DNA of 64,000 bases. Source: Phycisphaera sp. (lineage in GTDB: Bacteria > Planctomycetota > Phycisphaerae > Phycisphaerales > UBA1924). Position numbers and translations under genes: made by a program. The first letter of the stretch is position 1, and the number at the start of each line of letters is the position of its first letter. Below, one piece after another: positions 14,306 through 45,762 of this stretch. Location of the stretch: NCBI GenBank assembly GCA_025916675.1, contig CP098402.1, positions 2,847,205 to 2,911,204 on the forward strand, written 5' to 3'. The notes beneath the pieces were generated by a model, which worked only from the letters and a program-made list of their open reading frames with translations, ran no database searches and was not told where the DNA came from.

Positions 14306-14340
14306 GGGGTGTTCGCACACCCTGCTCTCTGGAGGTTGCC

Positions 14341-15336: not shown

Positions 15337-15407
15337 GGTGCAGCATGGGCAGTCCAGAGAATTTGGGTCGCCTCGGCATGCGTGTTAATGATTGCTCTTT
15401 GCTCGGG

Positions 15408-15436: not shown

Positions 15437-15481
15437 TCGAGTCGTTGGCGAGTGCTCGCCCAGGAGCGGAGAGGCGGACCT

Positions 15482-16120: not shown

Positions 16121-16173
16121 TCGCCCCCTGCGGCTTGGCACTCTCTCGGGCGGCCTGCTCCTAGACTCGGCCC

Positions 16174-31137: not shown

Positions 31138-32283
31138 CTACGGCCGACGAACGATCTCGACCGAAGCCGGTGCACCGAAACGCTTGTGCAGCCACACGGG
31201 TTGCAGGCCGCGCCGCGGATCTCCGACACGTCGCCAGAGGCGTTTGCCGTTTTCGTGGACCTCGTGGACGCGCGCGTCGTTGCGAGGCACCTTGAAGCCC
31301 GGATCACCCGATATGACGAAGCGGCCATCCGGCGACATGGCCGACGCCGTTCGGAACACGCCGGGTACGTCCAGCACGCGACGGCCCGTGGGCTCTTCGT
31401 CCGCCGGCCACTCGAGGCTGTAGATGCGATCGCGGTTGCTCTCGAAGCCGAAGTAGGCGTTGCCCGGACCATCGACCCAACCGTCCTGGAAGGGCACCAC
31501 GCGGTGGGGGCCATCGCCGCCCGATGGGCCGGGGCGCCAGAGGTACGCGCCCTCCTTCATGGGCGGGTTGTCGCTGCCGTCATATGGGAAGAGCACGGCC
31601 GTATCACCGAGCACCGGGTACACCGCGCCAACATCCAGGCCCGGGGCCCAGCCGGGGTCGGGCATCGGGTTGCCGTCCCAATCGAGGGCGACCAGCCCTT
31701 CGCGCGTGCGGACCACGATCGCCCGGCCGGGGATGACCGCGATGGAATTCCAGCCCCTCAGATCGGTGCGACCGATGGGCCGGAAGCCGTCGGCCTCGCT
31801 CCAGAGGACGGGTTGCGTACCGCGATCACCGTAGAAAATGCAGTAGTAGTTCTGTGCAGCCGGGACGATGTCGTGGGCGCCCTCGAACAGCAGGCAATCG
31901 ACCTGGAGGCCCGGCCTGTTCTGATCGTCCTCGCGTTGGATCAGCAGGCCGCAGGCCTGCGGGGAGGGGTAGCCGCCAGAATCGACCTGTTCGAGGTCCG
32001 GTACCAAGCCGTCGCGGAGATCGCCTTTGAGAACCAAGATCTTGACGGCCGGGTCGTAGGTATTGCCAACAGACGCCTCCTCGGCGGCGTCGATGAGCCA
32101 CAGCCGCAGCCGCAAGTGTGGGATGGAGTCGTCCCGCCAGCCCTGCCAGATCGGCTCGACCTCCGACGAGACGGAGAAGTAGTTCGGGCTCGGGCCGCGG
32201 TCGCCGGGCATGCCGCCAAACAAGCCGCACCCCGGCAGCACGCCAATCGCCAGCACGAAGAACGCGAACCGCAGACCACGCAT
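31138..32283 (-). CDS. Hypothetical lipoprotein with WD/beta-propeller-like C-terminal half
   Basis: The 381-residue protein starts at ATG 32283, six bases after GGGAGG. The signal peptide ends in the lipobox GVLPGC, so Cys ~18 should carry lipid. The C-terminal ~220 residues hold repeated blade-like phrases (IVVRTREGLVALDWDGNP, GNAYFGFESNRDRIYSLEW, ASAMSPDGRFVISGDPGF) that suggest a beta-propeller, but the repeats are too diverged to count. No enzyme motif is visible. It is divergent from gabT. Confidence 0.7.
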   Translation of the reverse strand: MRGLRFAFFVLAIGVLPGCGLFGGMPGDRGPSPNYFSVSSEVEPIWQGWRDDSIPHLRLRLWLIDAAEEASVGNTYDPAVKILVLKGDLRDGLVPDLEQVDSGGYPSPQACGLLIQREDDQNRPGLQVDCLLFEGAHDIVPAAQNYYCIFYGDRGTQPVLWSEADGFRPIGRTDLRGWNSIAVIPGRAIVVRTREGLVALDWDGNPMPDPGWAPGLDVGAVYPVLGDTAVLFPYDGSDNPPMKEGAYLWRPGPSGGDGPHRVVPFQDGWVDGPGNAYFGFESNRDRIYSLEWPADEEPTGRRVLDVPGVFRTASAMSPDGRFVISGDPGFKVPRNDARVHEVHENGKRLWRRVGDPRRGLQPVWLHKRFGAPASVEIVRRP

Positions 32284-32388
32284 GGGCATCCTCCCTGCTC
32301 TCCCGAGTCCGTTCTTAGAAACTAGGCGCGTCCGGTCGCGCATACACTCTGTTTCCAGCCCGAATCCCGCTGTGTCAGGAGTTCCTCA

Positions 32389-33741
32389 GTGCCAGCTACC
32401 GCCTCGACAGATACCGCCCAGGCCGCCTCGGCCGCCCTCGTCGCCCGCCGCCAGAAGGTGGTCTGCTCGGGCGTGGGCATGCTTAGCCCCATGACCGCCG
32501 CCAGCGCCGATGGTGCCATCATCACCGACGCCGATGGCAACGAGTTCATCGACTTTGCCAGCGGCATCGGCGTGATGGGCGTGGGCCATTCCGACCCGGC
32601 AGTGGTCGAGGCCGTCCGCCAGCAGGTTGGCACGCTCCAGCACGCGTGCATCCACGTGGCGACCTACGAGCCCTACGTGGCCCTGTGCGAGAAGCTCGTC
32701 GACCTCTTCCCGCATCACGAGGACGCGAGCGATAGCACGAAGGCCATGCTCATCAGCACCGGGGCCGAGGCGGTCGAGAACGCCATCAAGATCGCCCGCC
32801 AGGCCACCGGCCGCGCGGGCGTGATCTGTTTTGCGGGTGCCTTCCACGGCCGGACGCTACTGGCCGCCACGCTGACCAGCAAGACGCGCCTGAAAGAAGG
32901 CTGCGGCCCGTACGCGCCCGAGGTCTACCGGTTGCCCTTTCCCAAGGCGCTGCCGGGCGAGGCGATTCACGAAGCAGCGGTGGTCGAGCGCGAGCTGGTG
33001 CGCCTGGAGCGTGCCTTCGTCGACACCGTGTCGCCCACGCAGGTCGCGGCCATCATCATCGAGGTCGTCCAGGGCGAGGGCGGCTTCAACGTCGCGCCCA
33101 AGGCGTACTTAGAAGGCTTACGTCGAATCTGCGACGAGCACGGCATCGTGCTCATCTTTGATGAGGTCCAGTCGGGCTTCTGCCGCACGGGCAGGTGGGC
33201 GGGGTACGAGCACAGCGGCGTGAAGCCCGATCTTTCGCCCTGGGCCAAGGCCATGGGCGGCGGGCTGCCCATCGCGTGCGTCATCGGCAAGGCCAGCGTG
33301 ATGGACAAGGTGAACCCCGGCACGCTGGGGGGCACCTACGGCGGCAACCCCGTGGCGTGCGCCGCGGCGCTCGCGACGATCAAGCGGATGGAAGAGCTCG
33401 ACCTGAACGCACGGGCCACGCGCATCGGCGACACCATCCACCGCCGATTCAGCGAACTGGCCGGCAAGGTCAAGGCCGTCACCGAGATCCGTGGGCTTGG
33501 CGCCATGAAGGCCATCGAATTGTGCGAGGACGGTGATTCCGCCAAGCCTTCCGCCGCGATGGTCAAGGCGGTCATCGACGACTGCCGGAGCAAGGGCCTG
33601 CTGGTCATCGCCGCGGGCGTGGCGGGCAACTGCATCCGAGTACTGACGCCGCTGGTGATCACCGACGAGCAACTGGACCGCGGGCTCGACATCTTGTGCA
33701 AGAGCATCGAACAGCACGCGAACGGCTCGGGATCGAAATAG
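32389..33741 (+). CDS. gabT: 4-aminobutyrate aminotransferase-like class III aminotransferase
   Basis: The 450-residue PLP enzyme shows the class-III pattern: FIDFASGIGVMGVGHSDPAV, LISTGAEAVENAIKIAR, AFHGRTLLAATLT, the cofactor Asp in LIFDEVQSGFCRTG and the PLP Lys287 in PWAKAMGGGLP. The whole sequence is closest to GabT, which moves the amino group of GABA to 2-oxoglutarate and yields succinate semialdehyde for GabD. An AGGAG lies 8 bases before GTG 32389. The C-terminal region RVLTPLVITDEQLDRGLDIL is also family-typical. Other omega-amino acids are possible substrates. Confidence 0.88.
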   Translation: MPATASTDTAQAASAALVARRQKVVCSGVGMLSPMTAASADGAIITDADGNEFIDFASGIGVMGVGHSDPAVVEAVRQQVGTLQHACIHVATYEPYVALCEKLVDLFPHHEDASDSTKAMLISTGAEAVENAIKIARQATGRAGVICFAGAFHGRTLLAATLTSKTRLKEGCGPYAPEVYRLPFPKALPGEAIHEAAVVERELVRLERAFVDTVSPTQVAAIIIEVVQGEGGFNVAPKAYLEGLRRICDEHGIVLIFDEVQSGFCRTGRWAGYEHSGVKPDLSPWAKAMGGGLPIACVIGKASVMDKVNPGTLGGTYGGNPVACAAALATIKRMEELDLNARATRIGDTIHRRFSELAGKVKAVTEIRGLGAMKAIELCEDGDSAKPSAAMVKAVIDDCRSKGLLVIAAGVAGNCIRVLTPLVITDEQLDRGLDILCKSIEQHANGSGSK

Positions 33742-33825: not shown

Positions 33826-34812
33826 ATGCGCCCCTATGCCATCGCTGGCCTGCAATTGAACGTCTCGGGCCGTCGCTCGAACCTCGACCACATCTCCGAC
33901 CGCATCGAGATGGTCATGCACCTGTACCCGTGGGTGCAGATGGTCATCGTGAGCGAGCTGGCCACCTTCGGCGGGTGGACGGGCCACGCCACGCCATTGC
34001 CAGGCGACGTCGAGCAGCACTACCAGAAGCTGGCCGCCCGCCACGGCATCTGGCTGCTGCCGGGTTCGCTCTACGAGAAGACCGACACGGGCATCTACAA
34101 CACCACACCGGTGATCAACCCCGCGGGCGAGGTCATCGCGCGGTATCGCAAGATGTTCCCCTTCATGCCCTACGAGACAGGTGTGGAGTGGGGCACCGAG
34201 TTCTGCGTGTTCGACGTGCCCGAGGTCGGCCGCTTCGGCGTGAGCATCTGCTACGACATGTGGTTCCCCGAGACCACGCGCACGCTGGCGGCGATGGGCG
34301 CCGAGGTCATCCTGCACCCCACGCTGACGCCCACGATGGACCGCGACGTGGAGTTGTCGATCGTGCGCGCGACGGCGGCGATGAACCAGTGCTTCGTAGT
34401 CGACATCAACGGCATCGGCGACGGCGGCAACGGCCGCTCGCTGTTCGTGGCACCCACTGGCGACGTGCTGTACCAAGCCGGCAGCAACGAGGAACTGCTG
34501 CCCATCGAGATCGACCTTGACCGCGTTCGGCGATCGCGTGAGGTCGGGCTCAAGGGGCTCGGCCAGCCGCTCAAGAGCTTCCGCGATCGGGCCGTCGACT
34601 TCGAGGTGTACCAGCGGGGCAGCCCGACCGCCGAATACCTCAACACGCTGGGCACGCTCGAAAAGATGGCGCGGGGCAGCCGGGCCGGCATCGCGTTTGG
34701 CGAGCACCAGCCCGAGCCCATGCCCCCGCTGCCGAGCCAGCCGGCCACGCCTGCGCCTCCGGCCGCGCCCGATACGTTGACGCAGCCGCCCGTGCCGGGA
34801 TCCACGCCATGA
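33826..34812 (+). CDS. Carbon-nitrogen hydrolase (nitrilase superfamily amidohydrolase)
   Basis: The 328-residue protein has the three catalytic residues of the superfamily: Glu44 (IVSELATFGG), Lys109 (ARYRKMFPF) and Cys142 (GVSICYDMWFPE). Members cleave non-peptide C-N bonds such as those of N-carbamoylputrescine or omega-amides. The last ~45 residues are a Pro-rich tail (PPLPSQPATPAPPAAP) not needed for the fold. Its stop overlaps the next start as ATGA. Beside a basic-amino-acid decarboxylase, N-carbamoylputrescine amidase is a reasonable guess, but no agmatine deiminase is in the window. Confidence 0.85.
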   Translation: MRPYAIAGLQLNVSGRRSNLDHISDRIEMVMHLYPWVQMVIVSELATFGGWTGHATPLPGDVEQHYQKLAARHGIWLLPGSLYEKTDTGIYNTTPVINPAGEVIARYRKMFPFMPYETGVEWGTEFCVFDVPEVGRFGVSICYDMWFPETTRTLAAMGAEVILHPTLTPTMDRDVELSIVRATAAMNQCFVVDINGIGDGGNGRSLFVAPTGDVLYQAGSNEELLPIEIDLDRVRRSREVGLKGLGQPLKSFRDRAVDFEVYQRGSPTAEYLNTLGTLEKMARGSRAGIAFGEHQPEPMPPLPSQPATPAPPAAPDTLTQPPVPGSTP

Positions 34813-37511
34813 CGCAGGCCGAGTCGGTCGACACCCGCCCCCAGCGCCAGCGGGGGCGCCAGTACAGCGCCTTCCAATTGCGCATGGACACCTGGAACGA
34901 GCTGCAGGTGCGCACCAACTGGCTGCGCGAGTTGACACGGTCGGGCCAGGACGCCAGCGAGCCCCGTGCGCAGGTGGCCGAGAGCCTCGACGTGCTGGCC
35001 AGCCTGGAGCCCTACTGGGCGTTCCCCGGGCCGGCCCGGATGGACGAACTCACCCGCCTGTGCGCCGCGGGCGCGACGGGCGAGTTGGCCGATCGGGTCT
35101 CGAGCATCAGCCGCCTGCTCATCGGCGACGCGTACCGCGAACGCGGCGGCGCGGTGTTCGACGAGCCCGGACGCGACCCGCGCAAGAACGGGCAGGAGAT
35201 CGATCCGAGATCGCAAGTCCGCGGTCGACCGTACTTCGAGGTGCTGTTCGTCGATGGGGCCGACGCGTACGACCACGATTCGTTGCGTGAGGGCCTGGCC
35301 GAGTGCCGGCGCGAGGGCGACGAGTTCGTCTACGACGTGCTTACGGTGCCCAGCGCGCAGGACGCGGTGATCGCGGCGTTGTTCAACCCGACCATCCAGG
35401 CCGTGTTCCTGCGATACAACTTCGCCTTCAACACCGAGAACAGCCACCCCGCCCTGCGGCGGTACCTCAACGCGCTCTCGGCCGAGAACATGCCCAACAG
35501 CTACGGGCTCGATCGGAGCCTGCACCTGGCCAAGGTGCTCAAGAAGCTGCGGCCCGAGCTTGATCTGTATCTCGTCACCGACACACCGCTCGACTCGGTG
35601 GCCGGCAACGTGGGCAACGCCTTCCGCCGCACGTTCTACCGGCTCGAGCAGTACATGGAGCAGCACCTGAGCATCCTGCGGGGTGTTCGCGAGCGGTACG
35701 AGACGCCGTTCTTCGACGCGCTGCGCAAGTATGCGGCCAAGCCCACGGGCGTGTTCCACGCGCTGCCGATCGCGCGCGGCAAGAGCATGACCACCAGCCA
35801 CTGGGCTCGTGACTTCCACGAGTTCTACGGCGACAACTTGTTTATGGCCGAGACCAGCGCGACCAGCGGCGGGCTCGACTCGCTGCTGCAGCCGCGCGGG
35901 CCCATCCGCAAGGCCCAGGAAGCGGCGGCCCGTGCCTTCGGCGCTCGCCAGACGTTCTTCGTCACCAACGGCACCTCGACGGCCAACAAGATCGTGCAGC
36001 AGGCGCTCATCCGTCCGGGCGACATCGTGCTGGTCGATCGGGACTGCCACAAGAGCCACCACTACGCCTTCGTGCTGGCCGGGGCCCACCCGGTGTACCT
36101 CGACTCGTACCCGCTCCAGAAGTACACGATGTACGGCGCGGTGCAACTCGAAGAGATCGAGAAGCAACTGCTCGCGCTCAAGGACGCGGGCAAGCTCGAC
36201 CGCGTGCGCATGCTGGTGCTGACCAACTGCACGTTCGACGGCCTGACGTACGACCCGGTGCGCATCATGAAGCGCATCCTGGCGATCAAGCCCGACATGA
36301 TCTTTCTGTGGGACGAGGCGTGGTTCGCCTACGCCCGCTTCAGCCCCACGCTGCGCCGCCGGACGGCGATGGACGCGGCCAGCACGCTCCGCAAGCTGTA
36401 CCGCAGCTCCGAGTATCGCATCGCCTACGCGAATCGCGCCGAGGGCGACGAGCCGATGGCCGACCCCACCGAGGTCCGGGTGCGTGTGTACGCCACCCAG
36501 TCAACGCACAAGACGCTCACGAGCCTGCGGCAGGGCTCGATGATCCACGTATACGACGAGGACTTCGAGCAGCAGGCCAGCACTGCGTTCAACGAGGCGT
36601 TCATGACGCACACCTCGACCTCGCCCAATTACCAGATCATCGCCTCGCTCGACGCCGGGCGGCGGCAGGTCGAGCTTGAGGGCTTCGAGCTGGTCGAGAA
36701 GACCATCGACCTGGCCATGACGCTGCGCAAGCGCGTGAACGAGCACCCCGACATCTCGCGGTTCTTCCGCGTGCTGCGGCCGGCCGACATGATCCCCAGT
36801 GGGCACCGGCCCAGCGGGCTTGAGTTCTACTACCACCCCGAGCAGGGCTGGGGCAAGATGGACGCCGCATGGCGCGAGGACGAGTTCACGCTCGACCCCA
36901 CCCGCGTGACGCTCGAGGTGGGCACCACGGGTATCGACGGCGACACCATCCGCCACCTGCTGATGGACCGCTACGACATCCAGATCAACAAGACCTCGCG
37001 CAATACCGCGTTGTTCATGCCCAACATCGGCACCACGCGGGGCGACGTGGCATACCTCATCGAGACGCTGGCCGACATCTCACGCCGCGTCGAGGACAAC
37101 CTCAGCACCGAGAGCGCCGCGGGGCTGAACCTGCACACACAAAAGGTCGACTCGCTGCTCGAGGGCCCACCGCTACCCAACTTCAGCCATTTCCACCAGG
37201 CTTTCCGCGACGGCGACGCCTCGACGCCCGAGGGCGACCTGCGGCGGGCGTTCTTCCTGGCGTACGACCAGGACAACACCGAATGGGTAAAACTCGGCGG
37301 CGACCTGCTCAAGCAGATCAAGGACGGCCGCGAGTTTGTGTCGGCGGCGTTCGTGACGCCGTACCCGCCGGGGTTCCCGATCCTGGTGCCCGGGCAGGTG
37401 TTCAGCGCCGAGATCATCGCGTACCTGCTGGCGCTGGACGTCAAGGAGATCCACGGCTATCACTCCACGTACGGCCTTCGCGTCTTCGAGGAGCACGCGC
37501 TTCGGACCTAA
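34809..37511 (+). CDS. Orn/Lys/Arg-decarboxylase family PLP enzyme
   Basis: This 900-residue fold-type-I enzyme resembles the large biodegradative basic-amino-acid decarboxylases. The N-terminal ~330 residues are a poorly conserved wing. The PLP core has ETSATSGGLDSLL, FFVTNGTSTANKI, CHKSHHYAFVLAG, the cofactor Asp502 in FLWDEAWFAYA and the PLP Lys568 in ATQSTHKTLTSL. The C-terminal domain ends with FVTPYPPGFPILVPGQV, as in the family. It should produce a diamine or agmatine from lysine, ornithine or arginine. It starts inside the end of the upstream amidohydrolase (ATGA) and precedes an ATP-grasp gene by 30 bases. Confidence 0.88.
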   Translation: MTQAESVDTRPQRQRGRQYSAFQLRMDTWNELQVRTNWLRELTRSGQDASEPRAQVAESLDVLASLEPYWAFPGPARMDELTRLCAAGATGELADRVSSISRLLIGDAYRERGGAVFDEPGRDPRKNGQEIDPRSQVRGRPYFEVLFVDGADAYDHDSLREGLAECRREGDEFVYDVLTVPSAQDAVIAALFNPTIQAVFLRYNFAFNTENSHPALRRYLNALSAENMPNSYGLDRSLHLAKVLKKLRPELDLYLVTDTPLDSVAGNVGNAFRRTFYRLEQYMEQHLSILRGVRERYETPFFDALRKYAAKPTGVFHALPIARGKSMTTSHWARDFHEFYGDNLFMAETSATSGGLDSLLQPRGPIRKAQEAAARAFGARQTFFVTNGTSTANKIVQQALIRPGDIVLVDRDCHKSHHYAFVLAGAHPVYLDSYPLQKYTMYGAVQLEEIEKQLLALKDAGKLDRVRMLVLTNCTFDGLTYDPVRIMKRILAIKPDMIFLWDEAWFAYARFSPTLRRRTAMDAASTLRKLYRSSEYRIAYANRAEGDEPMADPTEVRVRVYATQSTHKTLTSLRQGSMIHVYDEDFEQQASTAFNEAFMTHTSTSPNYQIIASLDAGRRQVELEGFELVEKTIDLAMTLRKRVNEHPDISRFFRVLRPADMIPSGHRPSGLEFYYHPEQGWGKMDAAWREDEFTLDPTRVTLEVGTTGIDGDTIRHLLMDRYDIQINKTSRNTALFMPNIGTTRGDVAYLIETLADISRRVEDNLSTESAAGLNLHTQKVDSLLEGPPLPNFSHFHQAFRDGDASTPEGDLRRAFFLAYDQDNTEWVKLGGDLLKQIKDGREFVSAAFVTPYPPGFPILVPGQVFSAEIIAYLLALDVKEIHGYHSTYGLRVFEEHALRT

Positions 37512-37541
37512 GCCACGTTCTTCCACCGCTCAGGGGGCAGC

Positions 37542-39068
37542 ATGACCACCGTCACCACCAAGCCAACCAACCTCACGAAAGCCAAATCGCTCACCAGCGA
37601 CGTCGGCAAGCGTAAACGCAAGGGCACGCTGTACGGCATCTCGGAGATCCGACGGTTCTTCCACCGCAACACCGAGCCCATCTACTTCATCAGCGCGACG
37701 AACTTCAACCTGCTGGGCATCGACGAGTGGGTCCGCAACTTCACGTACATCAATTACATCGACTGCTTCGACGGGCAGCACCCCAACGTGTTCGTGCCGC
37801 CCGAGCGGCCGCACGAGCCGTTCGAGAGCATCGAGGACATCAACAACTACCTGCTGCGCCACCCGGCCGTCAAGGAACTCATCAAGAGCCGTGGCAAGGG
37901 CCTGAAGACCAACGGCAAGGCCGTGTTCCTGATGTTCGACGAGACCACCGAGAAGCTCTGCAAGGAGCTGGGCCTTGAGGTCTGCTTCCCGCCCGCGTCG
38001 CTGCGCAGCGTGGTCGATGACAAGATGGAGACCACCCGCATCGGCAACAAGGCCCGCGTGTACAGCGTGCCCAATAAGCTGGTGAGCGTGAAGGACTACG
38101 AGGACCTGCGCAAGAAGACCAAGAATCTCGGCGACGACGTGGTGATCCAGACCGCCTACGGCGACTCGGGGCACACGACCTTCTTCGTGAAGAATGAAGG
38201 CGACTTCGCCAAGCACGAGGCCGACATCACCAGCGCCCCCGAGGTCAAGGTGATGAAGCGTATCCGCTGCCGCGGCAGCGCGCTCGAAGCGTGCGTCACC
38301 CGGCACGGCACGATCGTGGGCCCGCTGATGACCGAGTTGGTGGGCTTCAAGGAGCTGACGCCCTATCGCGGCGGGTGGTGCGGCAACGAGGTGTTCGACG
38401 ATGCGTTCGATAAGCGCATCCGCAGGAACGCCCGCCGGGCCGCGATGGCCTTCGGCGACCAGCTCCGCGAGATGGGCTACCTGGGCTACTTCGAGATCGA
38501 CTACCTGACCGACCTGGACACCGGAAAGGTGTACCTGGGCGAGTGCAACCCGCGCATCACCGGCGCGAGCAGCATGACCAACCTAGCCGCCTTCGCCCAC
38601 GCCGACGCGCCGCTGTTCCTGTTCCACCTGCTCGAGTGGATGGGCGTGAAGTACGAGCTCGACGTCGACGAGTTGAACGAGCGTTGGGCCGACCCGCAGA
38701 ATATCGATAGCTGGTCGCAACTGGTCATCAAGCACACCGACGACACGGTCGACCGCATCACCCACGCGCCGCCGAGCGGCATCTATGAATTAGACGGCAA
38801 GGGAGGCATGCACTACGTGCGCATGCAGACGCACCGCCGCACGGTGCAGTTCGAGAACCGGGCGTTCTTCCTGCGCATCGCGGCCCCGGGTGACTACCGG
38901 TACGAGGGCGCCGACCTGGGCATCCTGGTCAGCCCGGGCCGGTTCATGGATGACGACTTCCAGCTGACGCCGCGGGCGAAGCAGTGGATCAAGGGCATCC
39001 GCAGGTTCTACGCGGGCGAGAGCGACGGGGCGGGCCAGCCCGAATTGACCGGCTTCAAGCTGCTGTGA
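37542..39068 (+). CDS. ATP-grasp ligase of unknown substrate
   Basis: The 508-residue protein contains an ATP-grasp core at about 160-370: the ATP-binding lysine region DDVVIQTAYGDSGHTTFF, MKRIRCRGSALEAC, and the Mg2+ Glu/Asn in YLGECNPRITGASSMTN. ATP-grasp enzymes activate a carboxylate as acyl-phosphate and join it to an amine or other nucleophile. The N-terminus (~20-150) and the C-terminal ~130 residues are not recognised. A GGGGG ribosome-binding stretch precedes ATG 37542. Between an amine-making decarboxylase and an amide-cleaving Ntn hydrolase, a carboxylate-amine ligase role is likely, but this is inference. Confidence 0.8.
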   Translation: MTTVTTKPTNLTKAKSLTSDVGKRKRKGTLYGISEIRRFFHRNTEPIYFISATNFNLLGIDEWVRNFTYINYIDCFDGQHPNVFVPPERPHEPFESIEDINNYLLRHPAVKELIKSRGKGLKTNGKAVFLMFDETTEKLCKELGLEVCFPPASLRSVVDDKMETTRIGNKARVYSVPNKLVSVKDYEDLRKKTKNLGDDVVIQTAYGDSGHTTFFVKNEGDFAKHEADITSAPEVKVMKRIRCRGSALEACVTRHGTIVGPLMTELVGFKELTPYRGGWCGNEVFDDAFDKRIRRNARRAAMAFGDQLREMGYLGYFEIDYLTDLDTGKVYLGECNPRITGASSMTNLAAFAHADAPLFLFHLLEWMGVKYELDVDELNERWADPQNIDSWSQLVIKHTDDTVDRITHAPPSGIYELDGKGGMHYVRMQTHRRTVQFENRAFFLRIAAPGDYRYEGADLGILVSPGRFMDDDFQLTPRAKQWIKGIRRFYAGESDGAGQPELTGFKLL

Positions 39069-40045
39069 GCCCGGGCGCCACGACCAGCCCGACCATGCTC
39101 TTCCGCGTCATGCGTGACGGATTCGAGCTAGATGAAGCGTTCGCGGCTTATTGGCCCGCGTACCAGAAGTGGATCGCAAAGAGCAAGGGCCGCATGAGCG
39201 CCAAGGCGGCGCGAGAAGCACTGGCTCAGCACGTGCCAGAATTGCTGCCGACGTACGCGGCGCTGCTCGCGCGCTTTGGCGACAAGGCCGATATCGCCCG
39301 CTTCCTCGCGCTGTACAAGCCACCGCCGCTGGTGCGCGGCTGCACACAAGCCGTGTGGCTGGGCGAGGGCGGGCCCGCCCTGGTGCGCAACTACGACCAC
39401 GCGCCGCACCTGTCCGATGGCATCGTGCTGCACGCCAACTGGGATGACGTCTCAACGGTGTGCATGACCGATTGCATCTGGGGCGCGCTCGACGGCGTGA
39501 ACGAGCACGGCCTGTGCGTCGCGCTGGCCTTCGGCGGGCGCAATGTGTCGGGCGATGGGTTCGCCGCTCCGCTGCTGGTGCGGTATGCGCTCCAGACCTG
39601 CACCACCGCGAGCGAGGCGGCCAGGGCCATCGCCCGCGTGCCATGCTCGATGACCTACACGTTCGTGTGCCTGGATAAGAACGGCGACCACGCGACGGTG
39701 TACGCCGCGCCGGACCGCTCCAGCCGCATCGACCACGCAACGGCGAGCACCAACCACCAGGGCAAGGTCGAGTGGCCGCAGTACGCCATCTCGTGCAAGA
39801 CGGTTGAGCGGCTGAACCGGGCCCGCGACCTGCTCGGCGACGAGGGCCAGACGCTCGGCACACTCACCCAGAGGTTCCTGGAGCCCCCGCTCTATCGCGC
39901 AAGCTACGCCAAGGGCTCGGGCACGCTGTATACAAGCGTGTATGTGCCCGCAAACGGCTCGTTGGCACTACACTGGCGGGGTGCAGCGCTGCGCCAGACG
40001 ATCGGGCGATTCGAGCCGGCGGCGATCGAGGTACGGCTGGGCTGA
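39065..40045 (+). CDS. C45-family Ntn hydrolase (acyl-CoA:6-APA acyltransferase-like)
   Basis: The 326-residue protein resembles the acyl-coenzyme A:6-aminopenicillanate acyltransferase family. A self-cleavage site is expected before Cys93 (LVRG-CTQAVW), which then becomes the N-terminal nucleophile. RNYDHAP, CIWGALDGVNEHGLCVAL and STNHQGK are family features. Members hydrolyse or transfer amide-bound acyl groups. The start is GTG 39065, overlapping the ATP-grasp TGA as GTGA; ATG 39095 is an alternative. The ligase and the hydrolase being coupled suggests one makes and the other breaks the same kind of amide. Confidence 0.82.
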   Translation: MSPGATTSPTMLFRVMRDGFELDEAFAAYWPAYQKWIAKSKGRMSAKAAREALAQHVPELLPTYAALLARFGDKADIARFLALYKPPPLVRGCTQAVWLGEGGPALVRNYDHAPHLSDGIVLHANWDDVSTVCMTDCIWGALDGVNEHGLCVALAFGGRNVSGDGFAAPLLVRYALQTCTTASEAARAIARVPCSMTYTFVCLDKNGDHATVYAAPDRSSRIDHATASTNHQGKVEWPQYAISCKTVERLNRARDLLGDEGQTLGTLTQRFLEPPLYRASYAKGSGTLYTSVYVPANGSLALHWRGAALRQTIGRFEPAAIEVRLG

Positions 40046-40068
40046 CGCATCTCACCTACCATGTACCG

Positions 40069-40545
40069 ATGGCCGAACTGTCTCCCAACACCAACTCGAC
40101 CCCCGCCCTGCGCATCACCGAGCCCCTGTGCGCCGTGTTCCGGCGTCAGCTCAAGGCCGAGGGGCAGAAGTACACGCCCGAGCGGGCCCAGGTGCTCGAC
40201 GCGATCATCCAGCTCGACCGCATCTTCGAGGCCGAGCAGGTGATCGACGAGCTGCGCGAGCGGCAGCATCGCGTGAGCAAGGCGACGGTGTACCGCACCA
40301 TCCACCTGCTGCAAGAGGCGGGCATCATCCAGCGCGTGCTGACCGAGGGCGACCAGGCCCAGTACCAGCTCGCCTATGGCGAGAGCCCAAGCGACACGCT
40401 CGTGCGCCTCGACACGCGCGAGGTCGTCACCATCGACGTGCCCGAACTCGCGGCCATCCGCGATCGCATCTGCAAGGAATTGGGGTTGTTGCCCCAGGGG
40501 CATAAGTTGCAGATCTTCGCCGTAGCGCCCGAAGCGGAGGACTGA
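40069..40545 (+). CDS. Fur-fold transcriptional regulator without metal ligands
   Basis: The 158-residue protein has the Fur-family winged helix: KYTPERAQVLDAIIQLDRIF, AEQVIDELRERQHRVSKATVYRTIHLLQEAGIIQRV. The dimerisation half is present as well (VVTIDVPELAAIRDRICKELGL, HKLQIFAV). The His-rich metal site and the CxxC that normally sit between them (HHDHLICxxCG) are replaced by ESPSDTLVRLDTREVV, with no Cys and no His. It follows the C45 gene by 23 bases and probably regulates this operon. The signal it senses cannot be Fe2+, Zn2+ or Mn2+ at the canonical site. Confidence 0.85.
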   Translation: MAELSPNTNSTPALRITEPLCAVFRRQLKAEGQKYTPERAQVLDAIIQLDRIFEAEQVIDELRERQHRVSKATVYRTIHLLQEAGIIQRVLTEGDQAQYQLAYGESPSDTLVRLDTREVVTIDVPELAAIRDRICKELGLLPQGHKLQIFAVAPEAED

Positions 40546-40548: not shown

Positions 40549-42174
40549 TCAACCGCACCCCGCATCGAACGCGTTCTGGAAGCACAGAAAGTCGAAGAGC
40601 GTGAGCGACCCATCACCATCGCAGTCGGCCCTCGGGTCGCCCGCGTCGAAGGCGTTTTGGAAGCACAGGAAGTCGAAGAGTGTGAGCGAACCATCGCCGT
40701 CGCAGTTGGCCACGCAAAGCTCGGCTTCGTCGATCACCAGGTCGGCCACCCACACCGTGTCGACCTGACGGCTGACCACGAACACTCGGCCCGATTCATC
40801 TGAACCGAAGCGAGGGTCCACGCGATCGAGGCCCAAAATGTCGTTGATCCCACCAGGCGTGCTGCCGTCCACGCTCACGTTCATCACGAACACATCGGCC
40901 TGCGTATCGCCCGCGTCGGCCGCGAACAACTCGCCCAGGTCGGCGTGGAAGAAGGCCCCGCGCGCGAGGTCGCTGAACAGCACCTGCTCGCCAAACCCCG
41001 GATCGCTCGGATCGATCACCGGGAACCCGCCGACGATGGCGGTGTTCTCGGCCGTCGGCGTCGCACCGGGCGTGTTTGGGATCTCGTGGTCGTACACCGC
41101 GGCGGGGAACTCGAGCGTCGAGCCCGAGGGCAGGCGGAGTACCGTGCCCAGATTGCCATCGTCGGGCCCGTCGTATCGCGTCCAGCCGTGGTTGTCGCCG
41201 TTGTCGACGATATTGATCTCTTCGAACTTCTCGTCGCCGATGTCGAAAACAAGCAGCCGCCCGTTCCCCAACGCGTCGCGCGCGAAGCACATGTTCTGCG
41301 GGTTTCGCATGCCCCAGGCGAAGATCTCCTCGGTGTTGCCGTCATCGTCGAGCAACGGCCCACCATCGGCGTAGAAATTGCTCGCGGGTACCGAATACCG
41401 ATCCGTACCGTTCTGCAGCGGATCGATGCGCAAGATCTTGCCGAAGGGGTTGTCGCGGTCTTGCACGTGCTGCCAGCCGGGATTGCCAGAGCCGTTGTTC
41501 ATGTCACCCAACGGGATGTGCAGCAGCCCATAGTTCGCGTCGCCAGGCTCGGCGTACGGATCGAACATGAGCTGGCCGACGCTGTGCGAGTCGACCACTC
41601 GGCCGCTGAACTCGAAGCGGATGACCTCACGCCGCGACGTGGTGTCGATGCGGTTCGGGTCGCTCGCGTCGACCGTCCATTCGGTGATGGCGTACTGCGC
41701 CCGGCTGTCGCCCGGCCGGCTGGGGAGCGCCGCGCCACTGTAATCGGGCGCGCGCGAGCCTGGCCTCACGCTCATCGAAGTGGTATAGAACTTGCCCTCT
41801 CCCGCTGTGCCCGGCACGGCGTAGTCGGGGTGAAATGCGCTGTAGGAAAGCCCATTGGTCGACAGTCGGAAGATCTGCCGGAAGTCGGGGAGCACGCCCG
41901 GTGCGGCCAGATCGAGGAACACGCCCAGCGGATCGCCCGCCGCCGAGAAGATGAACACCTTGCCCTCGTTCGTGCTCACGAACACGCGGCCCGAGCCGTC
42001 GCGGGGCGCGTCCAGGTCGATGGCCCCCGAACGATCGATCGTCGAGATCGTTGCGAAGGTCGACAATTCGAGCACCGTCGACGACGGCAGCGGATCGGGT
42101 GCCTGGGCCATCGTGGCTCCGCACGCACCAACCAGCACCACAACACTACCCCGACAACGCCCCATCGCAACCAT
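40549..42174 (-). CDS. PQQ-dependent sugar dehydrogenase-like secreted protein with GC-type dockerin
   Basis: The 541-residue protein is started at ATG 42174 because AGGAGG lies six bases upstream and a signal peptide follows (MVAMGRCRGSVVVLVGACGA, cleaved at MAQA-PD). The body is a six-bladed propeller of the soluble glucose dehydrogenase/HIPL type: RVFVSTNEGKVFIF, HIPLGDMNNGSGNPGWQHVQ, GKILRIDPLQNG, WGMRNPQNMCF and EINIVDNGDNHGW. The C-terminal dockerin pair uses CDGDGSLTLFDFLCFQNAFDAG twice with extra Cys and ends Gly-Cys-Gly. It probably oxidises sugars outside the cell. It is convergent with the Fur-fold gene, with only 3 bases between stops. Confidence 0.87.
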   Translation of the reverse strand: MVAMGRCRGSVVVLVGACGATMAQAPDPLPSSTVLELSTFATISTIDRSGAIDLDAPRDGSGRVFVSTNEGKVFIFSAAGDPLGVFLDLAAPGVLPDFRQIFRLSTNGLSYSAFHPDYAVPGTAGEGKFYTTSMSVRPGSRAPDYSGAALPSRPGDSRAQYAITEWTVDASDPNRIDTTSRREVIRFEFSGRVVDSHSVGQLMFDPYAEPGDANYGLLHIPLGDMNNGSGNPGWQHVQDRDNPFGKILRIDPLQNGTDRYSVPASNFYADGGPLLDDDGNTEEIFAWGMRNPQNMCFARDALGNGRLLVFDIGDEKFEEINIVDNGDNHGWTRYDGPDDGNLGTVLRLPSGSTLEFPAAVYDHEIPNTPGATPTAENTAIVGGFPVIDPSDPGFGEQVLFSDLARGAFFHADLGELFAADAGDTQADVFVMNVSVDGSTPGGINDILGLDRVDPRFGSDESGRVFVVSRQVDTVWVADLVIDEAELCVANCDGDGSLTLFDFLCFQNAFDAGDPRADCDGDGSLTLFDFLCFQNAFDAGCG

Positions 42175-42389
42175 ATCGAACCTCCTGACCTTTGCCATAC
42201 CCCGCTAGATCGGGGCGTCCATACACACAATCTACCACAAATCGGCCACCCGATCAATGGAAATCGCACGATTGCGGTGTACTTGGGAATGGGCGAGCGG
42301 GGACCCGGAGGGCGGGTCGGCCATCTCCAGGCGGCTTCGGCCAGAGCGATGTTGAACGTAGCCAGGTGCTCGTGGATCTGCCGCCAGGG

Positions 42390-43406
42390 CTAAGCCAGTA
42401 ACCGTACCCGTTCGTGCGACAGCGCCGCCCGGGCCGTGAGCCCTTCGATCTCCGAGGAGGCCTTTTCCATCGATCGGACGACGTCCGGCGCAAATTCGCT
42501 CCGGGCCGAGTTGCAGGCGTGCACGAGCACGTCCGCGCCGGCCTCTGCGCCCAGGCAGATCGTCTCCTCGAGCGACCAGCGTGCCCGCACGCCCTCCATG
42601 TCGAGCGCATCGGTGAACACAGGGCCAGCAAAACCGAGCTCGTCACGGAGTAGCCCTGTCGTCACCGCGCGCGACAGCGATGCCGGACGGTCCGCATCGA
42701 ACGCGGCCAGCAATAGGTGCCCCGTCATCACGCCAACACGCTTGCCCATCAGCAAGCGGTACGGCGCCAGCTCGCGATCACGCTTCCAAGTTCGGGAGAT
42801 GTCAACGAGGTCGTGGTGCGAGTCGACCGTCGCCGACCCATGACCGGGGAAGTGCTTGAGCACACAGGCGACCCCCGCCTCCCGATGCGCCCGCACCACG
42901 CGCTCGGCACACGCCGCGACCTCCCCCGGCTCACCCGAGAACGACCGCTCCAGTGCCCCAATCACCGGCGACGCAGGATTAATGTTCACGTCAACACACG
43001 GCGCGAAGTTCAGGGCGATGCCGGCGTCGCGCAGTGCGACCGCCATCGAACGCGATTGTGCCAACTGCTCCTGCTCCGTCAGCAACGCGAACTCATGCGC
43101 CGAGGGCCAGCCCGCGAAGCCGTGCGCACGGGAGAGGCGCTGCACGCGCCAGCCCTCTTGGTCGATCGCGACCAGAGCGTCGTCGCCAAGGCGCGAGCGC
43201 ACGTGATCCGTCAGCACCCGGACCTGCCCGGGCGATCGCACGTTCCGTTCCCCACCGGTGGCCACGTCGCGATCGAACAGAATCACCATCCGCACCCCCG
43301 CATGAGCACAGGCATCGAGGTCTTCTTCCAGCCCCGGGTCGCCCGGCGTCGCGCCGCGGATGCCGAGCATGGTCATCGCCCCAAGCTCGCGCAGCGCGGC
43401 GCTCAC
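42390..43406 (-). CDS. nagZ: Beta-N-acetylglucosaminidase NagZ (GH3)
   Basis: NagZ removes GlcNAc from GlcNAc-anhydroMurNAc muropeptides in the cytoplasm. The 338-residue protein has the GH3/NagZ signature LKHFPGHG (184-190), the catalytic-loop DSHHDL (195-200) and the nucleophile Asp266 in PVFTDALDMEGV. No signal peptide is present, which fits cytosolic recycling. The start is GTG 43406, overlapping the symporter stop as GTGA; ATG 43373 is an alternative. It is the last gene of the anmK-murQ-symporter-nagZ operon. Confidence 0.92.
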   Translation of the reverse strand: MSAALRELGAMTMLGIRGATPGDPGLEEDLDACAHAGVRMVILFDRDVATGGERNVRSPGQVRVLTDHVRSRLGDDALVAIDQEGWRVQRLSRAHGFAGWPSAHEFALLTEQEQLAQSRSMAVALRDAGIALNFAPCVDVNINPASPVIGALERSFSGEPGEVAACAERVVRAHREAGVACVLKHFPGHGSATVDSHHDLVDISRTWKRDRELAPYRLLMGKRVGVMTGHLLLAAFDADRPASLSRAVTTGLLRDELGFAGPVFTDALDMEGVRARWSLEETICLGAEAGADVLVHACNSARSEFAPDVVRSMEKASSEIEGLTARAALSHERVRLLA

Positions 43407-44854
43407 TGCTTTGGCCCCTTGGCAAGCGAGCAGACAGCGAGGCTCATGAGAAAGCCGCCGAGCATGCGCCACCCCAATGAGGGCGCCGGTTCGACCATGA
43501 ACTGCAGCGCCGCGACGTAGCCCGCGCCGAACACCAGCGCGCACAGGATCGACAGCGCGCTCCCGCGTCCGAGCAGCAGCGTCGACACGAAGACCCCCAG
43601 CAGCCCCGCGTAGGCGTAGATCATCACGCCCAGCGCGAAGGGGATCAACCCCTCGTCCTTCCCGCCCTCCGCCAACACAAACACACACGCCATCGCGATC
43701 AACGCCGAGCCGCAGAGTGCGTTCACGATCCGGGCGGTGCGAGCGCCGGCGTCCTTCTTACCGAAGCCGAGGTCCACGACCACGGAGCTCGACATGGCGT
43801 TGAGCGCCGAGTCTGTGCTGCTCATCGCGGCGGCGAACAGACCAGCGATCAGCAGGCCGCGTAGGCCCGTCGGGAGATCGTCGAGGATGAAGGCGAGGTA
43901 CACCCCGCGCGTGTCGCCCTCGACCACCCCGCCGCCCGAGGCGTCTCGTACGAAGAGCAGAAGCCCCACGCACAGGAACAGCCCGACGACGAGTGTCCCC
44001 AGCAGACTCGACGCGATCAGCGACCACGCCGCCCGCGGAGCGCTCCGCGAGGTCAGGAGGCGCTGCGCGAGGTCCTGGTCCGTCCCGAACGCCGCGGCGT
44101 TGAAGAGTGTCAGCCCCAGCAGCACCGCCCAGAGCGTGTAGGGTGAGCCGAGGTCCCACGACAGGTCGATCAGCACGAGCTTGTCGCCCGTTGGGTCGGC
44201 GTGGGCGATCGCGCCAGGCAAGTCGCTCGGCGCGATGCCGATCTGCCCCACCAGCACCCAGATGCTCGCGACCACCGCGACCACCATCACCAGGGCCTGC
44301 AGCGCGTCCGTCCAGATCACCGCCCTGATCCCGCCCCACGACGTGTAGATCATCGCCAGCGTGCCCATCGCCGCCACGCACACCAGCAGGTGATCGATCG
44401 CGAGGTCGCCGAACACGATGAGGCTGCACGGCACCGCAGCAATGTAGAGCCGCGAACCGCTCGCGAGCAGGCGGCCGAGCAGGAACGCCGCGGCACAGGA
44501 CTTCTGCGCGAACACCCCGTGTCGTGCGCCGATCGGCTCGTACACCGTCGTCGCACGGGCCGCATAGAACTTCGGCAGGAGCAGCCACGCGACCAGCACC
44601 GCACCGAGCACCGACGCGATCGACGCCGACAGATACGTCAGGTTCGACGTGTATGACTCCTGTGGTCCTCCAATGAACGTTGCACCCGAGACCGACGTCG
44701 CGACGACCGAGACCGCGATCGCCCACGCCGGCACGCGCCGCTCGCCCGTGTACAGCGCCTCCGCGCTCCGCACCCGTCGTGCCGCGAGCCAGCCGATCAC
44801 CAGCACCGCGAGGGCGTACGCCGCGAAGACCACGCCGTCGAGCACTGTTAGCAC
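43403..44854 (-). CDS. Sodium:solute symporter (SSS family), probable muropeptide-sugar importer
   Basis: The 483-residue protein has about 13 membrane helices and SSS motifs: an early SVVATSVSGATFIGGPQE, YEPIGARHG, and the LFAAAMSSTDSALNAMSS segment of helix 8 that binds Na+. It starts at GTG 44854, 7 bases inside the murQ gene, and its stop overlaps nagZ. Members carry sugars, amino acids or vitamins with Na+. Its place inside a complete MurNAc-recycling operon makes MurNAc, anhydroMurNAc or the GlcNAc-anhydroMurNAc disaccharide the likely cargo. That is inference from context. Confidence 0.88.
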   Translation of the reverse strand: MLTVLDGVVFAAYALAVLVIGWLAARRVRSAEALYTGERRVPAWAIAVSVVATSVSGATFIGGPQESYTSNLTYLSASIASVLGAVLVAWLLLPKFYAARATTVYEPIGARHGVFAQKSCAAAFLLGRLLASGSRLYIAAVPCSLIVFGDLAIDHLLVCVAAMGTLAMIYTSWGGIRAVIWTDALQALVMVVAVVASIWVLVGQIGIAPSDLPGAIAHADPTGDKLVLIDLSWDLGSPYTLWAVLLGLTLFNAAAFGTDQDLAQRLLTSRSAPRAAWSLIASSLLGTLVVGLFLCVGLLLFVRDASGGGVVEGDTRGVYLAFILDDLPTGLRGLLIAGLFAAAMSSTDSALNAMSSSVVVDLGFGKKDAGARTARIVNALCGSALIAMACVFVLAEGGKDEGLIPFALGVMIYAYAGLLGVFVSTLLLGRGSALSILCALVFGAGYVAALQFMVEPAPSLGWRMLGGFLMSLAVCSLAKGPKQ

Positions 44855-45762
44855 GACGCCCCCCGTTCCAACGCGCCACGCAGCGCCCCATCCGATACCT
44901 CGAGCAGCGCCTCCGCCTCGCCTCGTGATACAAGCAGCGAGCGCATGACCACCGCGGTCTTCACGCGACCGCCCGCCTCGTCGAGCAGCGCGAGGGCGTC
45001 CTCGCGCGACCCGCCGACCAAGCGTACCACGATCCGCGCCGCCCGGTCGTGCAGCTTGTCATTCGTAGCGCTCACGTCGACCATCAGCCCGTCGTGCACC
45101 TTGCCCAGGCGCACCATCAGGGCGGTCGAGATCATGTTGAGCACGAGCTTCGTTGCGGTCCCCGCCTTCAGGCGCGTCGACCCCGCCAGCACTTCGGGCC
45201 CCGTCTCGAGGCGGATCACGTGGTCCGCATCGAGGCTCTCGGGCAGGCTGCCGCACGTCACCAGCGCCGTCAGCGCACCGCGCGAGTGTGCTATGTCAAT
45301 CGCTCCTAGCGGGTAGGGCGTAGTCCCGCCCGCGGTCAGCCCGATGACCGTGTCGAGCCGGCCCACACCGAGCCGCTCCAGCTCCGCGCCGGCGCCCTGC
45401 GGATCGTCCTCGAGCGACTCGCTCGACCGGCGTAATGCGGCATCGCCACCAGCGATGATCCCGATGACGCGCGATGGGTCCACGAGGAACGTGGGCGGGC
45501 ACTCCGAGGCATCGAGCACGCCCAGGCGCCCCGACGTCCCGGCGCCGACATAGATGAGGCGACCGCCCGCTCGGAACCTCGGTACGACATCCTCCACCAG
45601 CGCCGCGATGCGCTCTGTCTCGGCGCTCACCGCGCGTGCAGCCCGCTCGTCCTCTGCCGACATCAGCGCCAGCAATTCCGCGGTCGGCAGCGCATCCAGA
45701 CCCACGCTGCGCGGGTGGACGCCCTCGGTAGGCACGCCCGAACGGTCCGGCGGCGACTTCAC
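44848..45762 (-). CDS. murQ: N-acetylmuramic acid 6-phosphate etherase
   Basis: MurQ cleaves the lactyl ether of MurNAc-6-phosphate to GlcNAc-6-phosphate and D-lactate. The 304-residue protein has the SIS-domain signature IYVGAGTSGRLGVLDASECP, then VIGIIAGGDAALRRSSESLE, VIGLTAGGTTPY and KAGTATKLVLNMISTALMV, all diagnostic. GTG 45762 overlaps the anmK stop as GTGA, so the two are coupled; the product of AnmK is the substrate of MurQ. The C-terminal ~60 residues form the usual helical extension. Confidence 0.94.
   Translation of the reverse strand: MKSPPDRSGVPTEGVHPRSVGLDALPTAELLALMSAEDERAARAVSAETERIAALVEDVVPRFRAGGRLIYVGAGTSGRLGVLDASECPPTFLVDPSRVIGIIAGGDAALRRSSESLEDDPQGAGAELERLGVGRLDTVIGLTAGGTTPYPLGAIDIAHSRGALTALVTCGSLPESLDADHVIRLETGPEVLAGSTRLKAGTATKLVLNMISTALMVRLGKVHDGLMVDVSATNDKLHDRAARIVVRLVGGSREDALALLDEAGGRVKTAVVMRSLLVSRGEAEALLEVSDGALRGALERGASC

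Follow-up and report, generated by a model that had tools for sequence, protein, structure and literature searches.

What might a bacterium gain from keeping a nitrilase-type hydrolase, an Orn/Lys/Arg-type decarboxylase, an ATP-grasp ligase and a C45-type hydrolase side by side, as in the window analysed here (that is, a stretch of 64,000 nt from Phycisphaera sp., assembly GCA_025916675.1, contig CP098402.1, positions 2,847,205–2,911,204 of the forward strand)? A sequence-only reading had placed five tightly packed ORFs at 33826–40545 and proposed that they make an amine, conjugate it and hydrolyse the conjugate. All five are present there, and profile scores back their family assignments; together with two upstream genes they are arranged as follows.

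28835–30289, + strand: putative succinate-semialdehyde dehydrogenase, SSADH (PF00171 580 bits; TIGR01780 636 bits, just short of the cut-off of 646.35)
32389–33741, + strand: GABA transaminase-like class III aminotransferase, GabT (PF00202 390 bits; GABA-transaminase profile TIGR00700 478.6 bits, cut-off 506.65)
33826–34812, + strand: carbon-nitrogen hydrolase of the nitrilase superfamily, NIT (CN_hydrolase PF00795 116.7 bits)
34809–37511, + strand: Orn/Lys/Arg-type PLP decarboxylase, DC, 900 aa (OKR_DC_1 PF01276 281.3 bits)
37542–39068, + strand: ATP-grasp ligase, GRASP (NF005096 747 bits, cut-off 684)
39095–40045, + strand: C45/isopenicillin N acyltransferase-like Ntn hydrolase, C45 (NF040521 153.9 bits, cut-off 85)
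40069–40545, + strand: Fur-family regulator, outside the conserved unit (FUR PF01475 76.2 bits)

The tight packing holds for the 4-bp ATGA overlap of NIT and DC and for the gaps of 30 bp between DC and GRASP and 23 bp between C45 and the regulator, whereas the GTGA overlap of GRASP and C45 (4 bp) exists only if C45 starts at GTG 39065; with the start at ATG 39095, 26 bp separate the two genes. Two minus-strand ORFs lie between SSADH and GabT in the window, and in relatives (for example, locus L018) the genes are close together.

NIT, DC, GRASP and C45 follow one another in the same order and on the same strand in 58 of the 67 loci evaluable for this order (that is, those with at least 4.5 kb upstream), in several phyla, which is far beyond chance; the four-gene unit ranges from Planctomycetota to Rhodobacterales and myxobacteria, and C45 adjoins GRASP in 76/80 loci. 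Among 294 Planctomycetota genomes, 15 encode a full-length DC and 14 a confident GRASP (13 over the cut-off plus genome G118), and both occur in 14, so that DC is present in 14/14 confident GRASP genomes (Fisher p 5e-23, kinship ignored). The view of DC, GRASP and C45 as one unit is thereby borne out, and free separation in relatives, which the sequence-only reading had named as refuting, was not seen: the set stays together. Partial sets do occur, one genome (G207) carrying DC without GRASP and one locus (L044) carrying GRASP without C45 or NIT within 10 kb. The set had no match in 50,697 records searched for phage carriage, and we found no description of it in open-access full texts, in agreement with the earlier remark that it was not recognised as a described pathway.

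The limits of the unit nevertheless differ from those first drawn. The regulator, taken earlier as its fifth member, is only a local neighbour, as a Fur-family homologue occurs in just 3/15 Planctomycetota loci and 1/80 others. Upstream, GabT and SSADH are linked to the unit, as the earlier mention of nearby GABA-degrading genes had implied: GabT homologues occur in 12 of the 15 Planctomycetota loci examined and SSADH homologues in 11 (10/13 of those with full GRASP). Both lie near the operon in L060, L076 and L100. The window GabT is the best of three PF00202 matches in its genome, one of the others being HemL-like, and transaminases of three other loci exceed the TIGR00700 cut-off (L053, 599.6; L068, 598.1; L093, 526.1 bits). 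Linked transporters are of importer type, namely a TAXI-TRAP transporter (19/93 loci) and a family 5 ABC solute-binding protein (6/103 loci).

To interpret the four enzymes we looked at the residues expected to be catalytic in each. In NIT, the Glu-Lys-Cys triad (E44/K109/C142) is invariant in all 85 homologues extracted. Its closest named family is AguB (N-carbamoylputrescine amidase), an identity that we rejected given a TIGR03381 score far below the cut-off (80.4 versus 410.25 bits). The putative citrullinase CtlX is described in the available text as a distant relative of arginine deiminases (PMC9007349), which would place it outside the family of NIT.

DC is assigned to the OKR (AAT-fold) decarboxylases on its PF01276 score and its PLP lysine (K568, invariant in 91/91 homologues extracted), and belongs to a long, 900-aa clade of Orn/Lys/Arg-type enzymes. 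Profile scores give a weak lead for arginine decarboxylase and do not single out ornithine (ADC 277, LDC 254 and ODC 161 bits), and no substrate-specific NCBIfam cut-off is reached (LdcC 217 versus 968, ADC 188 versus 1167, ODC 181 versus 794), so that DC was not accepted as an arginine, lysine or ornithine decarboxylase proper. Its nearest solved relative, matched over almost the full length, is Rv2531c of M. tuberculosis (PDB 9n0o, 797.4 bits); 9n0n (797.5 bits) bears the identical molecule name, 'probable amino acid decarboxylase'. The activity of Rv2531c (PDB 9N0O) has not been clarified according to the part of the source available (PMC12910592).

C45 has no significant match in the PDB by sequence (best E 0.4 with the single sequence and 0.019 with a profile); its structure model (pLDDT 90.6) has as top Foldseek match 2x1c (E 1.2e-12, TM 0.62). 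Family score, predicted fold and a putative autoproteolytic Cys conserved in 96/96 homologues extracted identify it as a C45 (AAT) Ntn hydrolase; C83, D101 and N220 are all invariant in this set, and their roles are presumably those known from the C45/isopenicillin N acyltransferase family. Isopenicillin N acyltransferase shares the fold, but is only 14–16% identical to the window protein in the structural alignment (TM-score about 0.6). Given that this top structural match is a true acyltransferase, and that the available text of an azaserine-biosynthesis paper mentions a 'C45 family peptidase', the operon could be imagined to build an amide natural product or a polyamine derivative rather than to degrade anything. 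We consider this quite improbable, as the linked GABA transaminase, SSADH and import-type transporters argue against it and the spread over phyla looks more like core metabolism.

GRASP exceeds the cut-off of an NCBIfam family named 'biotin carboxylase', although the name alone is no proof of activity. In a fold search with its structure model (pLDDT 80.8), PurK, PylC, biotin carboxylase and GAR synthetase tie at Z 22–24, and all 50 matches listed fall within Z 2 of one another, so that no single ligase is named thereby. E334, N336 and R338 are invariant in 104/104 homologues extracted. The model thus identifies an ATP-grasp fold with the presumed Mg-ATP acidic residues (E334, N336), and we predict a carboxylate-amine ligase. 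Biotin carboxylases carry N-x-R-x-Q-V-E-H as their bicarbonate-site motif. After the shared E-x-N-x-R, GRASP instead reads (T/C/S)-G-(A/C/V), with G in 104/104, where biotin carboxylase has Q-V-E-H; AccC of the same genome reads EVNTRVQVEH. These columns were matched through the shared motif itself, as the profile alignment covers only another region and no more than 94 columns of GRASP and AccC align by sequence. On the basis of this difference, and of a Pfam scan that found no biotinyl (biotin-carrier) domain in eight window proteins, we rejected GRASP as a biotin carboxylase; the label could mislead metabolic models. A biotin-independent carboxylase (that is, one forming PurK-like carboxyphosphate and carboxylating an amine, guanidine or urea, with NIT and C45 hydrolysing the product) would fit the family name, the tie for the best fold match between PurK and biotin carboxylase and the ureohydrolase genes of 5/103 loci, which could supply urea. 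We nevertheless consider it very improbable: the window operon has neither a ureohydrolase (the genome has two arginase-family genes at other sites) nor, among the proteins scanned, a carrier domain, and the replaced Q-V-E-H counts against biotin carboxylase, although not fully against a PurK-like enzyme.

On what, then, might the ligase act? The earlier proposal had the decarboxylation product joined to a carboxylate; the part that makes GRASP one unit with DC stands, whereas the product as substrate is weakened by loci without DC. In loci of Thiofilum and Shinella, DC is absent and GRASP, C45 and NIT are kept beside genes for an ornithine-racemase-like protein, D-amino-acid dehydrogenase, 5-guanidino-2-oxopentanoate decarboxylase (AruI), aldehyde dehydrogenase and ureohydrolase. 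The DC-less loci L072 and L116 encode AruI at 770 and 737 bits (cut-off 500), an Orr-like racemase at 400 and 393 bits (under the cut-off of 480), and D-amino-acid dehydrogenase, aldehyde dehydrogenase and agmatinase-family genes. The GRASP tree places L072 together with L073/L090, which carry DC (SH-aLRT 96), and Shinella together with the DC loci of rhizobia (SH-aLRT 100); on it, the DC-less label takes six changes, five of them forced by starred branches. DC and AruI are not exclusive, AruI being over the cut-off also in 6/13 DC-bearing genomes searched; Pfam and NCBIfam scans found no AruI among the window operon proteins. Since GRASP and C45 persist without DC beside a keto-acid route, GRASP probably does not act on a free decarboxylation product, and its substrate is more likely common to both routes (that is, either the amino acid prior to decarboxylation or the final C4 acid).

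These loci also bear on the closest known parallel. The Puu pathway of E. coli proceeds through ATP-dependent conjugation, oxidation and amide hydrolysis to GABA, followed by GabT and SSADH; its ligase (PuuA) is of the glutamine-synthetase type and its hydrolase of the PuuD type. The proposed operon shares this logic, but its ligase is ATP-grasp, its hydrolases are C45 and CN hydrolase, and its decarboxylase is built in; with neither a PuuA-type ligase nor a PuuD-type hydrolase among the operon proteins, we rejected the Puu pathway proper. A strict functional analogue would have DC form putrescine (or agmatine) and GRASP gamma-glutamylate this diamine in its free form; oxidation of the other end would fall to a transaminase and a dehydrogenase, and C45 (or NIT) would cleave gamma-glutamyl-GABA. 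The adjacency of DC and GRASP (73/80 loci) and the GabT/SSADH linkage agree with this, as does an XRE-cupin regulator, found in 16/93 loci and adjoining GabT in 14 of the 16, which in L068, the one relative tested, is PuuR-like (NF007408 136 bits, below the cut-off of 211). Locus L093, with neither DC nor a confident AruI, keeps aldehyde dehydrogenase and GabT, as if a diamine were supplied from elsewhere. However, the keto-acid route of Thiofilum and Shinella makes no free diamine, and their GRASPs nest among DC-linked ones, so that we regard this analogue as unlikely.

We instead tentatively propose, at rather less than even confidence, a catabolic operon in which a basic C5 amino acid (most likely arginine or ornithine) is taken through GABA to succinate by means of a transient N-acyl cap. 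In favour of this are the conserved order of the set, its tie to GabT and SSADH, the co-occurrence of DC and GRASP, an XRE-cupin regulator beside GabT, the DC-less loci with an AruI module, the fold of C45, the NifA/sigma-54-type promoters predicted in two rhizobial loci and the published fate of arginine in bacteroids (both below). With ATP, GRASP would attach a carboxylic acid, perhaps gamma-linked glutamate, to the amine on the side chain of this amino acid. The alpha-carboxyl could then be lost either through DC and transamination of the resulting amine, or through conversion of the D-amino acid to the keto acid and an AruI-type decarboxylase. Aldehyde dehydrogenase would yield N-acyl-GABA, C45 would strip the cap to free GABA, and GabT and SSADH would carry it to succinate. 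The cap may keep C4/C5 amino-aldehydes from cyclising. NIT is the weakest step; its probable substrate is an amide or a carbamoyl compound that enters the route.

Several observations sit uneasily with the proposed route. The keto-arginine route needs no cap from arginine, whose guanidino group already blocks cyclisation, so that a cap would be useful only with ornithine as the real substrate. Two amide hydrolases accompany one ligase, leaving NIT over; in the wider set GabT lies inside only 41/80 loci and SSADH 25/80, and among 62 evaluable loci GabT is found upstream on the same strand in just 26 and SSADH in 14; no NIT was found in L113–L115; and L093 lacks both DC and a confident AruI, with L044 and G207 holding partial sets. 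The scores of DC, which do not point to ornithine, the coexistence of DC and AruI in some genomes and the two rhizobial loci without a predicted promoter before DC also count against it.

A ligase acting at the other end of the route deserves weighing here, given that the DC route and the AruI route share the C4 acid, that ATP-grasp enzymes activate carboxylates, and that the best fold matches include PylC, an amino-acid ligase. GRASP might activate the carboxyl of the end product (GABA or 4-guanidinobutyrate); the resulting GABA amide or dipeptide could be stored, exported or put to osmotic use, and C45 and NIT would break it down again. No exporter was recognised among the conserved neighbour clusters and the linked transporters are of importer type, and we hold this to be quite unlikely.

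Other systems share parts of the capping logic that we favour. In the arginine succinyltransferase (AST) pathway, an acyl group from succinyl-CoA blocks the alpha-amine during arginine-family degradation and is later removed, the route ending in glutamate; an amine blocked by an acyl group is also what we propose, and no AST enzymes occur among the window operon proteins. In butirosin synthesis, the ATP-grasp enzyme BtrJ caps GABA-ACP with a gamma-glutamyl group; in insects, Ebony/Tan pairs conjugation with C45 hydrolysis. Likened by description, both cap and uncap (ATP-grasp in one, C45 in the other), but they use carrier-protein or NRPS-like chemistry and other substrates. The keto-arginine (AruI) pathway, as in the S. 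meliloti arginine network, runs through AruI, aldehyde dehydrogenase and ureohydrolase to GABA and succinate, and the available text notes no ATP-grasp or C45 step (PMC7268258). The GRASP loci of Shinella and Thiofilum contain genes of this type, whereas the window operon has neither AruI nor ureohydrolase. If arginine or ornithine is indeed degraded to GABA in capped form, a missing piece in the breakdown of amino acids and polyamines would be supplied, two enzyme families would gain a function, and a lead on Rv2531c-type decarboxylases would follow.

The unit also occurs in a three-gene form, DC-GRASP-C45, on rhizobial symbiosis plasmids (the DC of L113 is on pSym and may correspond to SMa0680/SMa0682), and no NIT was found in the rhizobial loci L113–L115. 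A scan pairing a sigma-54 motif with an upstream NifA-type element predicts a NifA/sigma-54-type promoter before DC-GRASP-C45 in two of four rhizobial loci and none before DC in the other two; when the threshold is lowered, background pairs appear, namely 3 at 9/11 and 22 at 8/11 in 1.41 Mb. As L114 shows no pair before DC and none for nifH, and L115 only an 8/11 pair upstream of DC, the scan probably misses real sites. It is possible, if doubtful, that many bacteria degrade arginine or ornithine to GABA by a route not described so far, in which GRASP caps, C45 uncaps and decarboxylation modules are interchangeable, in some rhizobial bacteroids under NifA/sigma-54. Such a route could bear on how nitrogen-fixing bacteroids use arginine. 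In the portion of the published account available, bacteroids convert labelled arginine to 4-guanidinobutanoate and GABA, and an enzyme network leading to succinate was reconstituted in vitro (PMC7268258).

The operon and the two upstream genes with which it may share a pathway are listed below; the gene spacings given in the sequence-only reading are correct provided that C45 starts at the GTG at 39065.

28835–30289, plus strand, succinate-semialdehyde dehydrogenase (SSADH)
32389–33741, plus strand, GABA transaminase-like protein (GabT)
33826–34812, plus strand, carbon-nitrogen hydrolase (NIT)
34809–37511, plus strand, Orn/Lys/Arg-type decarboxylase (DC)
37542–39068, plus strand, ATP-grasp protein (GRASP)
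39095 or 39065 to 40045, plus strand, Ntn hydrolase (C45)
40069–40545, plus strand, Fur-family regulator

As suspected from the window, this gene set is a real and widespread metabolic unit and, as far as we searched the literature, NIT-DC-GRASP-C45 is undescribed as such. In a sample of 294 Planctomycetota genomes, 16 had GRASP family matches (14 confident; that is, 13 above the cut-off and genome G118) and 16 had DC profile matches (15 full-length), and the search for co-occurrence that had been proposed found both genes in 14 genomes (Fisher p = 5e-23; counting every weak match, 5e-20; neither value corrected for kinship). Genome G207 has DC and lacks GRASP; by eye, genes for an anion transporter and for a protein resembling aspartate 4-decarboxylase are among the neighbours of its DC (L150, 8759–11770). 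The 15 loci fetched from Planctomycetota contain NIT and DC in 13, C45 in 13, GabT in 12, SSADH in 11 and Fur in 3; those without NIT and DC hold a GRASP fragment (L031) or a weak match (L032). Among named genomes of Bacteria and Archaea, a scan gave at least 444 GRASP relatives, and the best 80 of these are accompanied by C45 (77), DC (76), NIT (67), GabT (41), SSADH (25) and Fur (1). By position, C45 directly follows GRASP in 76 of these best 80, and the order NIT-DC-GRASP-C45 is complete in 58 of the 67 of them with at least 4.5 kb upstream; 4 of the 11 listed exceptions adjoin a contig end (L038, L056, L082 and L102). The GRASP tree includes Planctomycetota, Pseudomonadota, Myxococcota, Gemmatimonadota, Acidobacteriota, Bacteroidota and Eiseniibacteriota, and the family occurs in 32 of 72,556 plasmid records, with no match in phage records. 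Two loci sit on this tree at odds with their record names, Oceanobacillus sp. HTM 045 (L097, nested among alphaproteobacteria) and Roseateles sp. XES5 (L118, beside Shinella), which could be explained by mislabelled or mixed assemblies.

The GRASP protein scores above the cut-off of an NCBI family named 'biotin carboxylase', yet its motif (E-x-N-P-R-x-(T/C/S)-G) departs from that of the genome's own AccC (E-V-N-T-R-V-Q-V-E-H) at the bicarbonate-binding site. Its AlphaFold model (pLDDT 80.8) resembles PurK, PylC, biotin carboxylase and GAR synthetase to an equal degree, so that we class it only as an ATP-grasp enzyme. The C45 model (pLDDT 90.6) is closest to isopenicillin N acyltransferase (TM 0.6), followed by bile-salt hydrolases and penicillin V acylase, all enzymes of N-acyl amides. 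By profile, DC scores 277 bits against an arginine, 254 against a lysine and 161 against an ornithine decarboxylase; the solved structures closest to it are 9n0n and 9n0o (797 bits, almost full length), the latter being Rv2531c, whose activity its study left unclarified (PMC12910592). For all of these enzymes and NIT, the expected catalytic residues are retained in every homologue extracted.

The gene neighbourhood points to GABA. Of the three matches to class III aminotransferases in its genome, the window GabT scores highest (of the other two, one is HemL-like and one reaches no family at threshold); it falls just under the GABA-transaminase equivalog cut-off, which the transaminases of L053, L068 and L093 exceed. 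In the window, two minus-strand ORFs separate SSADH and GabT, the matches of which lie approximately 200 bp apart in the relative L018. The dehydrogenase varies by lineage: six Planctomycetota loci encode one with 62–88% identity to that of the window, and in five others the identity is 32–37% (on the opposite strand in two); that of L045 is closest to the succinic-semialdehyde dehydrogenase PRK09406, under the cut-off. The operon of alphaproteobacteria is preceded in 19 of 93 loci by genes for a TAXI-type TRAP receptor and a fused permease, and an XRE-cupin regulator occurs in 16 of 93 loci, adjoining GabT in 14 of these 16 as read by eye; the sole one scored (L068) is PuuR-like, under the cut-off. 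As to other window ORFs, one of 401 aa between SSADH and GabT (31138–32343, minus) is lipoprotein-like by eye and gave no match in a Pfam scan. At 40549–42198 (minus) lies by eye a secreted sugar-dehydrogenase-like protein with a dockerin-like C-terminal motif around DGDGSLTLFDFLCFQNAFDAG, repeated twice, and 42390–46976 (minus) presumably holds a cell-wall recycling group, judged by eye from its ORFs (NagZ-like glycosidase, sodium-solute symporter, MurQ-like etherase and AnmK-like kinase).

The sequence-only reading proposed that an amine made by decarboxylation is conjugated and the conjugate hydrolysed. Conjugation and hydrolysis by the operon are likely, but the molecule conjugated is probably not the decarboxylation product itself. 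Some lineages keep NIT, GRASP and C45 without DC. In Thiofilum flexile (L072), NIT-GRASP-C45 is accompanied by a permease, an agmatinase-family gene, an aldehyde dehydrogenase, a D-amino-acid dehydrogenase, a 5-guanidino-2-oxopentanoate decarboxylase (AruI; 770 bits against a cut-off of 500) and an ornithine-racemase-like protein, the second half of which resembles arginase. Corresponding genes occur in Shinella and near-identical plasmids (L116, L118 and L120), with GRASP and C45 central and NIT on the opposite strand. In Plasticicumulans (L082), the DC search gives only an ordinary OKR match, and AruI (855 bits) lies on another contig, where an aldehyde dehydrogenase, an agmatinase-family gene and a permease were also matched; in L093, neither DC nor AruI was found. 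Cupriavidus necator pBB1 (L121) also has NIT-GRASP-C45 without DC; beside these genes (13876–18193) lie a YheO-like PAS regulator, an amino-acid ABC transporter and a D-amino-acid-dehydrogenase-like gene (159 bits against a cut-off of 383), which again hints at a connection to D-amino acids.

On a quick GRASP tree, the DC-less rows are scattered, requiring 6 changes, 5 of them forced by well-supported branches; L044 counts as DC-less because no DC lies within 10 kb (its genome has one elsewhere), and for plasmid rows DC was sought in the fetched stretch only. L072 groups with L073 and L090, both of which bear DC, and the rows of Shinella adjoin DC-bearing rhizobia. As the keto-acid route involves no free diamine, a GRASP substrate common to all lineages would be expected either ahead of decarboxylation, as the amino acid, or after it, as the C4 acid, although the substrate could vary by lineage.

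If the side-chain amine of ornithine were capped, either decarboxylation module could work without cyclisation, and capped ornithine would yield N-acyl-GABA and, via C45, GABA. Ornithine is favoured because the racemase of both DC-less types resembles ornithine racemase (under the cut-off) and because, in one study, the AruI homologue of S. meliloti was sevenfold more active on 5-amino-oxopentanoate than on the guanidino acid (PMC7268258). Against capped ornithine, arginine itself requires no cap, and two arginase-family genes lie elsewhere in the window genome, near agmatinase in one case and near formimidoylglutamase in the other.

A three-gene form, DC-GRASP-C45, also occurs on rhizobial symbiosis plasmids. 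In R. leguminosarum Vaf10, the three genes are divergent from nifHDKEN, from which a single hypothetical gene separates them, and beyond them come a family 5 ABC transporter and an amidase; other rhizobial loci partly resemble this arrangement. We searched for promoter pairs (that is, a sigma-54 site at 10 or more of 11 with a TGT-N10-ACA element 60–200 bp upstream) and found five in four rhizobial loci (79.6 kb) and none in 1.41 Mb of 80 other loci, where looser thresholds gave 3 pairs at 9 of 11 and 22 at 8 of 11. Three of these rhizobial pairs precede DC: two in S. meliloti SM11 pSmeSM11c (L113), as near-identical tandem NifA/sigma-54-type candidate promoters (5727–5844 and 6568–6687) upstream of a DC whose conserved part starts at 6931, and one in L122. 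The others precede glutamate dehydrogenase (L115) and the TlpA/fixA/fixB genes of L122, the latter with letters identical to those of the L122 DC site. As none precedes DC in L114 or L115 at 10 or more of 11, a role in nitrogen-fixing bacteroids is a testable prediction from sequence rather than a finding. The C45 reading frame of L122 is truncated ahead of insertion-sequence genes.
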